DNA of 64,000 bases from Acidimicrobiia bacterium (GTDB lineage: Bacteria > Actinomycetota > Acidimicrobiia > Spongiisociales > Spongiisociaceae), in assembly GCA_009841105.1 (NCBI GenBank), contig VXMM01000036.1, positions 1-64,000 on the forward strand. The letters are read 5' to 3'. How positions within the stretch are numbered: the first letter of the stretch is position 1; every line of letters begins with the position of its first letter. The notes under the pieces were generated by a model. It searched no databases. It was not told where the DNA came from and worked only from the letters and a program-made list of their open reading frames with translations. A program made the position numbers and the translations under genes. This document shows positions 33,355 through 39,719 of this stretch, in pieces.

Positions 33355-34401
33355 ATGGATTCCAATGACATCCCGACTAGTAAGGGACTCTTGAAACTTC
33401 TTCGGCTCTACAAGGGGCTGAGGTCCACGTATCGCGGCTCGGACATCACCCGTCGCATGCAAAGCTTCGATGGATGGACCGACCGAGCATCGGCGGACGA
33501 TGCGGATGCTAAGGGCTACGAGCATGCCAAAACCGTCCGGGAGTACTACGACCTTTGCAACGAGTTGATGGTCTTCGGCTGGGGCGAGTCGCTGCACTTC
33601 GCTCCGCTCTCGCCTCGGGAGAGCCTGGAGGACTCCAAGATCCGGCATCAGCGGCTAATGATCTCCAAGCTGGAGTTGCGCGAGGGCATGACGGTGGTCG
33701 ATGTCGGTTGCGGCATCGGCGGCCCGATGCGTCGTGTCGTCCGTGAGGCCGGTGTCAGGGTCTTAGGGGTCAACTACAGCGAAGTCCAGCTGGCCAAGGC
33801 GAGATCATTGAACGCCGAGGCGGGAATCGACCACATGGTTGACTACCTCGCTACCAGCTTCATGGACATGGGAGCCATCGCCGACGGTACGTACGACAGG
33901 GCCTACGCGATCGAGTCCACATGCCATGCGCCCGACAAGGCGGGCGCGTTCGCCGAGATCTACCGCGTGCTGAAACCCGGCTCGCTCTTCTGGGGCCAGG
34001 AAATGTGTCTGACAGACAGGTTCGATCCCGACGACAGCGAGCACCGGGCCATAAAGCAGGGCTTGATGCACGGCATCGCGCTCAAGGACATCGCGACGAC
34101 GGATGAGGTGGACCGTGCCCTCGAGACGGTAGGGTTCCAGGTTATCGAGGGGATGAACCGGGCCGTGGACCGGACCGGTCCTACGAAGCCTTGGTACCAA
34201 CCTATGGACACCCGTCGCGGATCGCTGAGCCGCAAGGCTTACATCGGGATGGCCGGCGTCGCCGAGGTGCTGCGGGTATTCCCGATGGGAACCAAGGAGG
34301 TCGTCAGGCTGCTGGATCAAACCGCCGACGCCTATGTCGCAGGCGGCAGGACCGGGATCTTCACACCGCTGTACTGTTTCCTGGCTCGCAAGCCCATCTA
34401 G
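33355..34401 (+). CDS. sterol C-24 methyltransferase-like SAM-dependent methyltransferase
   Basis: A 348-residue methyltransferase that matches eukaryotic Erg6/SMT proteins along its length. It has the aromatic region VFGWGESLHFAPL (SMT region I), the SAM motif VVDVGCGIGGPMRRV (about residue 115), YAIESTCHAPDKAGAFAEIYRVLKPG (about 180; the diagnostic YAIEATCHAP-type block) and a sterol-MT C-terminal domain ending TGIFTPLYCFLARKPI. The expected role is transfer of a methyl group from SAM to C-24 of a sterol side chain or a sterol-like lipid. No squalene epoxidase or oxidosqualene cyclase is in the window, so the substrate could be host-derived. ATG 33355 is chosen by similarity; upstream in-frame residues are unlike the family. 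Confidence 0.8.
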   Translation: MDSNDIPTSKGLLKLLRLYKGLRSTYRGSDITRRMQSFDGWTDRASADDADAKGYEHAKTVREYYDLCNELMVFGWGESLHFAPLSPRESLEDSKIRHQRLMISKLELREGMTVVDVGCGIGGPMRRVVREAGVRVLGVNYSEVQLAKARSLNAEAGIDHMVDYLATSFMDMGAIADGTYDRAYAIESTCHAPDKAGAFAEIYRVLKPGSLFWGQEMCLTDRFDPDDSEHRAIKQGLMHGIALKDIATTDEVDRALETVGFQVIEGMNRAVDRTGPTKPWYQPMDTRRGSLSRKAYIGMAGVAEVLRVFPMGTKEVVRLLDQTADAYVAGGRTGIFTPLYCFLARKPI

Positions 34402-37442: not shown

Positions 37443-39281
<1,839 letters not shown>

Positions 39282-39719
39282 CTTCGCCTCCCAACATCCG
39301 GTCTGTTACGGACCGATACCGGACTCGCCAGGTTGCTGGGCGAAGTATCGGCTCGTGACCTCGGTCGGGACACGGCTCGGTACTCGCCGGGCGGCGTGTG
39401 CGGCTGGATGGGCCGGACGGCATGAGGTTCGCATCCACCCCCGGCCGGACCGGGGCAGGGGCGCGCCACATGCCAGTCACACGCTTCCACTCCGGCCCGG
39501 TCTCTGTCACCCCGGTTGCCCGGGGCTTTTCCTCCGAACCGTCACGGCCGTGGAAGGGCCGAGAGGGCATCCGCCGAGTACTCGATAACCCTCTTCCTCG
39601 TCACCCCGGTCGGCGACGCGATCTTCTCGAGTCGATGGCCGGGGCCAGGCGCTTGAAGAAACGGCTGTCCGTGATCGGTTGTCGGATCCAGGTTAGCCCC
39701 CGATTTCAGTGGCCAGTGA
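39282..39719 (-). other. 438-bp glmM-glmS intergenic region
   Basis: No convincing gene is present. Two compact GC-rich hairpins are visible: CCCCGG-CCGGA-CCGGGG (39439-39455) and CCCCGG-TTGC-CCGGGG (39510-39525), the latter followed on the plus strand by CTTTTCC. It could be a long glmS leader or promoter region. I do not recognise a glmS ribozyme core. Confidence 0.4.

Follow-up and report, generated by a model that had tools for sequence, protein, structure and literature searches.

A subfamily of sterol methyltransferase homologues with an altered active site in sponge-associated bacteria, with a probable role in the tailoring of imported sterols

Side-chain-alkylated steranes are read as traces of early animals, and it is already known that bacterial symbionts can produce some of them. 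In one study (Brown et al. 2023, PMC10070321), eight out of ten tested sterol methyltransferases (SMTs) of sponge symbionts methylated desmosterol, and a Chlamydiae SMT whose genome of origin carries no other sterol genes was active too. Furthermore, Kelly et al. 2022 (PMC9531527) described horizontally transferred ERG24-CYP51-ERG7 clusters with an SMT nearby from ten phyla of Ircinia symbionts, and a related cluster, msb, is published for Melophlus (PMC7074536). Concerning the reaction itself, aromatic residues of Region I are described as required for cationic C-24 methylation, and a nematode relative that methylates C-4 is without them (PMC6997595; on Region I aromatics in the C-24 reaction, see also PMC5711494).

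The gene reported here is located at positions 33355..34401 (+ strand) of the window, i.e., the whole stretch of 64,000 nucleotides that was analysed, which makes up the start of contig C21 (64 kb out of 110 kb). The host is a sponge-associated member of the Acidimicrobiia (Actinomycetota), with a genome of 3.05 Mb that is 97.5% complete. The gene consists of an intact open reading frame (ORF) of 348 amino acids (ATG at 33355, TAG at 34399 - 34401), of which the start codon is uncertain, as the alignment of relatives begins at residues 2 - 13. Its product, SMT_W, is a predicted SAM-dependent methyltransferase of the SMT family. All blocks that the initial annotation had named as diagnostic were retrieved, namely GWGESLHF (residues 75 - 82), the SAM-binding motif VDVGCGIGGP (33697..33726, + strand; residues 115 - 124), the SMT motif YAIESTCHAP (33904..33933, + strand; residues 184 - 193), and the C-terminal domain Sterol_MT_C (PF08498; 34219..34395, + strand; residues 289 - 347), the latter at 58 bits (cut-off 21.7; E 1e-15). 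Asp116 and Cys119 of the SAM-binding motif are invariant in 87 out of 87 sequences of the same type as SMT_W (window type), as in canonical SMTs, and residue 188 is Ser in all 87, compared with Ala in 16 of the 19 others. Two further Pfam models, Methyltransf_11 (63 bits) and Methyltransf_25, matched SMT_W, and zero NCBIfam models scored above cut-off.

SMT_W scored 243 bits against Arabidopsis SMT1, 203 bits against SMT2, and 198 bits against yeast Erg6, these three scores being a lead and not a database result; among the solved methyltransferases that do not act on sterols, RebM and MitM came nearest, with about 80 bits. Models of UbiE, sarcosine-dimethylglycine, and cyclopropane-synthase enzymes scored far under SMTs, and these readings were rejected. 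A gamma-tocopherol methyltransferase was set aside as well, the models compared being those of these three other families. SMT_W has a class I SAM methyltransferase domain in which the SAM motif is intact; the predicted structure is of the Rossmann type (pLDDT 79.5), and a structure search with this model returned class I methyltransferases only and no useful sterol enzyme. Contamination with eukaryotic DNA was rejected, because the contig is bacterial and the relatives of SMT_W belong to bacterial metagenome-assembled genomes (MAGs) with conserved bacterial neighbours, several of them single-record chromosomes. The earlier claim of an SMT gene in a bacterium of a sponge-associated lineage is hence upheld. 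Against its relatives, SMT_W displays dN/dS values of 0.18 - 0.30, indicating purifying selection.

A scan of GTDB genomes yielded 413 relatives of SMT_W, the best 80 of which are 64 - 89% identical to it and stem mostly from sponge-associated MAGs. According to their record titles, these best 80 belong to at least eight phyla, including Actinomycetota, Chloroflexota, Pseudomonadota, Gemmatimonadota, Nitrospirota, Nitrospinota, Myxococcota, and Dadabacteria. The top relative (89%) is that of Acidimicrobiia bacterium CO36387bin_10, and MAGs named RHO1 and SB0664 are close as well. Numbered 'bin' MAGs resemble the published Aplysina aerophoba set, and the name 'Plut' presumably refers to the coral Porites lutea. 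The elements RHO, COS, and IRC in MAG names agree with three of the sponges sampled in PMC8163846 (Rhopaloeides, Coscinoderma, and Ircinia), and the jk18x bins originate from Ircinia (PMC9531527). Within the order of the host, 16 of 138 genomes, distributed over three genera, contained matches to SMT_W, one of these 16 (G427) possessing the canonical type only. In the sampled phylum, Sterol_MT_C was found in one of the 397 genomes drawn, which was the genome of the window.

The phylogeny with eukaryotic and bacterial SMTs that had been proposed as a check was carried out on 108 sequences. In this tree, a branch with a length of 1.65 changes per site (SH-aLRT 100) sets the window type apart from 16 canonical bacterial and three eukaryotic SMTs; as the outgroups are incomplete and sit on long branches, the tree was left unrooted and used for this split only. 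The phylum label changes at least 14 times on the tree, whereas seven changes would suffice. In addition, protein identity between phyla within the window type amounts to 66 - 75%, and dS from SMT_W to the copies of Chloroflexota and Nitrospirota is only 0.8 - 0.94. The many phylum changes and the low dS clearly point to transfer of window-type SMT genes across bacterial phyla.

Region I of SMT_W reads MVFGWGESLHF (33568..33600, + strand; residues 72 - 82, equivalent to Erg6 Y81 - F91), so that the signature of 24-SMTs in this region (Erg6 Y81EYGWG86, with Tyr or Phe at 81 and Glu at 82) is replaced by MVFGWG. The equivalents of Erg6 Tyr81 and Phe89 are Met and Leu, respectively, in 87 out of 87 window-type sequences, and the Glu82 position is occupied by Val or Ile in 83 of them; Tyr/Phe81, Glu82, and Phe89 are retained in all 16 canonical bacterial SMTs and in the three eukaryotic ones. 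A further subfamily-specific change, present in all 87 sequences, concerns the residues W-G-Q (33991..33999, + strand; residues 213 - 215), involving A221 to W and Y223 to Q (Erg6 numbering); Tyr is found at position 223 in 18 of the 19 SMTs not of the window type. His90, Glu98, Phe83, Trp85, and the residues of the SAM site are retained. Fixed residue changes together with a preserved SAM site suggest a conserved shift of substrate or of the position methylated rather than decay. Since the residues that steer C-24 chemistry are replaced throughout the subfamily, the reaction that Erg6 performs on desmosterol is probably not the one catalysed by SMT_W. The name sterol C-24 methyltransferase given by the initial annotation can therefore be kept as far as the SMT family is concerned; its C-24 part is unsupported, in view of Met81, Leu89, the loss of Glu82 in most members, and the long branch to canonical SMTs.

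SMT_W may alternatively be an ordinary sterol C-24 methyltransferase despite Y81M, E82V, and F89L, acting at C-24 (or C-28) of sterols from the host or its neighbours, which is considered unlikely. According to Nes and co-workers, changes of Tyr81 in yeast Erg6 reportedly alter its products, so that loss of this residue need not abolish C-24 methylation. Homology to SMTs over the whole length, including Sterol_MT_C, and the retention of His90, Glu98, Trp85, and the SAM residues would be in keeping with such an activity, as would the activity of the published sponge-symbiont and Chlamydiae SMTs (PMC10070321). However, the Tyr and Glu of Region I are lost in nearly all members, the window type constitutes a separate subfamily, and an ordinary C-24 enzyme would be redundant in the several carrier genomes that contain a canonical SMT alongside the window type. 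The host is one case of such co-occurrence, as a second SMT gene (C44:7644-8741; Sterol_MT_C 83 bits; 41% identical to SMT_W) is of the canonical type with an intact Region I (DFYEFGWGRSFHF) and adjoins a rhodanese-like gene. Judged by its sequence, this paralogue is likelier to be the ordinary C-24 enzyme than SMT_W.

The statement that the window holds no sterol synthesis gene proved correct, and it extends to the host genome, in which the suggested search for squalene epoxidase and oxidosqualene cyclase (OSC) was performed. No match to SQHop_cyclase or PF13249, covering squalene, oxidosqualene, and hopene cyclases, was found in this 97.5% complete genome, the Bacillus subtilis control being positive, and a search with PF08491 for squalene epoxidase gave no match either. 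Both genes that mark de novo sterol synthesis are hence undetected in the host genome. A sterol context does exist outside the window, as a tailoring cassette is encoded elsewhere in the genome in addition to the canonical SMT on C44. Genes for squalene formation are located on the contig of the window, at 69 - 71 kb (within 67.0 - 71.1 kb; L117:2973-7073), approximately 5 kb past the window end, and comprise hpnE (394 bits, above cut-off), an hpnD-like gene just below cut-off, and a second SQS/PSY gene. With HpnD/HpnE-type genes and no detectable cyclase, the end product may be squalene or an unknown triterpenoid. Separately, a strong glmS ribozyme (39484 - 39664, - strand; RF00234, 101.8 bits) precedes glmS (37443 - 39281, - strand) in the window. 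This ribozyme family is known mostly in Bacillota.

Such squalene genes bring in a triterpenoid or isoprenoid C-methyltransferase as another reading of SMT_W, with squalene, a prenyl diphosphate, or a carotenoid as its substrate in place of a sterol. The squalene methyltransferases of Botryococcus are SMT homologues, the host makes squalene (HpnE, HpnD-like protein, and the second SQS/PSY) and has no cyclase, and C-methyltransferases of GPP and FPP appeared among the fold neighbours of the predicted model, ranked under small-molecule methyltransferases. This reading is nevertheless quite improbable, as window-type genes are recurrently linked to genes for a KshA-like Rieske oxygenase, a P450 nearest to CYP51, and a transporter with a sterol-sensing domain, and in some genomes also to an OSC gene and further genes of sterol synthesis, whereas SQS/PSY genes were not seen as recurrent neighbours.

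Among 49 carrier genomes, an OSC-type match was found in ten (142 - 159 bits, the level of a confirmed OSC fusion) and a hopene-cyclase-type match in 24 (> 350 bits), this sorting relying on score classes and on checks of individual members. No recognisable OSC match was retrieved from the other 39 of the 49, among them four single-record Dehalococcoidia chromosomes and one Nitrospirales chromosome, the carrier MAGs being incomplete, which qualifies these absences. Hopanoid methylation as a general role was rejected, because a hopene cyclase is absent from the host and from about half of the tested carriers. At Nitrospira loci, a squalene epoxidase-OSC fusion and a canonical SMT accompany the window-type SMT. 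Similarly, in a gammaproteobacterium (L152:528-18384; G544, contig C176), the cassette is separated by approximately 10 kb from a sterol cluster that looks complete, which encodes an OSC fusion, a P450, an ERG4/ERG24 reductase, SdmA, and SdmB, near a canonical SMT. The co-occurrence with sterol genes in Nitrospira and in this gammaproteobacterium ties the subfamily to sterols. As the genome of the window and most carriers have no OSC match, their substrate is most likely supplied by the sponge or by neighbours that produce sterols. The simplest account is that a minority of the carriers apply the cassette to sterol of their own making, and the rest to sterol of the sponge or of neighbours. No dedicated sterol importer was identified, which counts against import.

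The cassette was delineated at loci with at least 12 kb of sequence, to which 61 loci conform. In 47 of these 61, at least one of three genes lies within 6 kb of the SMT gene, encoding either a GPP34-cytochrome P450 fusion, or a Rieske oxygenase similar to KshA, or a flavin oxidase, and linked cassette genes were seen in named members of six phyla. Across all 80 loci, the P450 fusion was found at 54, the Rieske gene at 41, the flavin gene at 29, and MMPL-family matches of two types at 40. The MMPL transporters, often present at SMT loci, match the sterol-sensing domain PF12349. The Rieske oxygenase has a KshA-type C-terminus, with KshA as best solved match, and the flavin amine-oxidase-type protein is best matched by LkcE, a polyketide amine oxidase. 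CYP51 is the best solved match of the GPP34-P450 fusion; identity with CYP51 was not accepted, because a separate P450 is present in the ERG24/OSC cluster of the gammaproteobacterium. This fusion with GPP34 (Golgi phosphoprotein 3) is conserved across sponge-symbiont phyla, and no published description of it was found.

The host genome contains all cassette genes, in dispersed locations. Its GPP34-P450 fusion (64% identity) is encoded at C3:31014-33320 (L115:9015-11321) with the Rieske gene (71%) adjacent, and on contig C54 a flavin oxidase gene (80 - 81%) adjoins an MMPL gene (67%). Of these four genes, only the Rieske gene is interrupted, by a single in-frame TAG at C3:33983 (L115:11984), at which seven relatives of the genus are uninterrupted; it may be a pseudogene or reflect an assembly error. 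The dispersed cassette and this TAG raise the possibility that the pathway is decaying, unless the assembly is wrong there. Accordingly, SMT_W might be a decaying remnant without a current role in a host species that lost the pathway, and two members of the genus do lack a window-type SMT. This is very improbable, given the intact ORF with its dN/dS of 0.18 - 0.30, the intact P450, flavin, and MMPL genes, and the retention of both SMT and Rieske genes in eight of the ten genus genomes, with the Rieske frame intact in seven; in the remaining two genomes both genes are absent, although the two genes are unlinked.

The preferred reading, with a probability of about 0.6, is that SMT_W is a sterol- or steroid-tailoring methyltransferase that acts on imported sterol with a changed substrate or regiochemistry, as part of a cassette shared across phyla. 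The steroid nature of the substrate is suggested by enzyme families that act on other compounds as well, and we likewise infer the import, the order of the steps, and the position methylated. The cassette would consist of the SMT, the GPP34-cytochrome P450 fusion, the KshA-like Rieske oxygenase, the flavin oxidase, and the MMPL transporter with its sterol-sensing domain, and would have moved across phyla inside sponge microbiomes. The carriers would acquire sterol from their sponge or from neighbours that make it, alter it by oxidation and methylation, and then keep or export it, the window-type SMT probably taking an already modified substrate or methylating another position. The host may thus be altering sponge sterols while being unable to make sterols from scratch. 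If a second SMT subfamily with an altered active site, distributed over many phyla of sponge symbionts, indeed acts on sponge sterols without de novo synthesis, genome screens based on OSC will miss such bacteria as sterol modifiers, and some unassigned sterol modifications of sponges may have a bacterial source. A more specific proposal, that the subfamily is a new kind of SMT with another regiochemistry (e.g., at C-26, as in 26-methyl sterols, or on the steroid nucleus) within a horizontally spread cassette that remodels sponge sterols, is unlikely; if true, symbionts would be a source of sterols read as sponge biomarkers.

In the literature searched, neither the cassette of GPP34-P450, Rieske, flavin, and MMPL genes nor the Met81 subfamily was found described, the comparison with PMC10070321 covering its text; bacterial SMTs as such are already published. 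SMT_W shares with Erg6, SMT1, and SMT2 (EC 2.1.1.41 and 2.1.1.143) full-length homology at 31 - 40% identity, the SAM motif, [YS]AIE[AS]TCHAP, and Sterol_MT_C; the window type differs by Y81 to M, E82 to V, F89 to L, A221W, and Y223Q, and by its separate branch. The SMTs of Brown et al. 2023 (PMC10070321) are, like the window type, bacterial and sponge-associated, some of them in genomes without other sterol genes, whereas the text of that paper mentions no Rieske KshA/GPP34-P450/MMPL cassette as found at window-type loci. The nematode 4-SMT STRM-1 (PMC6997595) is an SMT relative that is without the Region I aromatics, of which SMT_W has lost Tyr81 and keeps Phe83 and Trp85, and its pathway includes a Rieske oxygenase, DAF-36, a likeness to be read as analogy only; 4-SMT has low identity to 24-SMTs, whereas SMT_W keeps Sterol_MT_C, Trp85, and most SMT motifs. 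Finally, the Ircinia and Melophlus clusters (PMC9531527, PMC7074536) resemble the window-type cassette in their occurrence in many sponge-symbiont phyla, their horizontal transfer, and the SMT nearby. These clusters serve de novo synthesis, whereas the window-type cassette is a different gene set, usually without a cyclase, and the gammaproteobacterium carries both a de novo-type cluster and a window-type cassette side by side.
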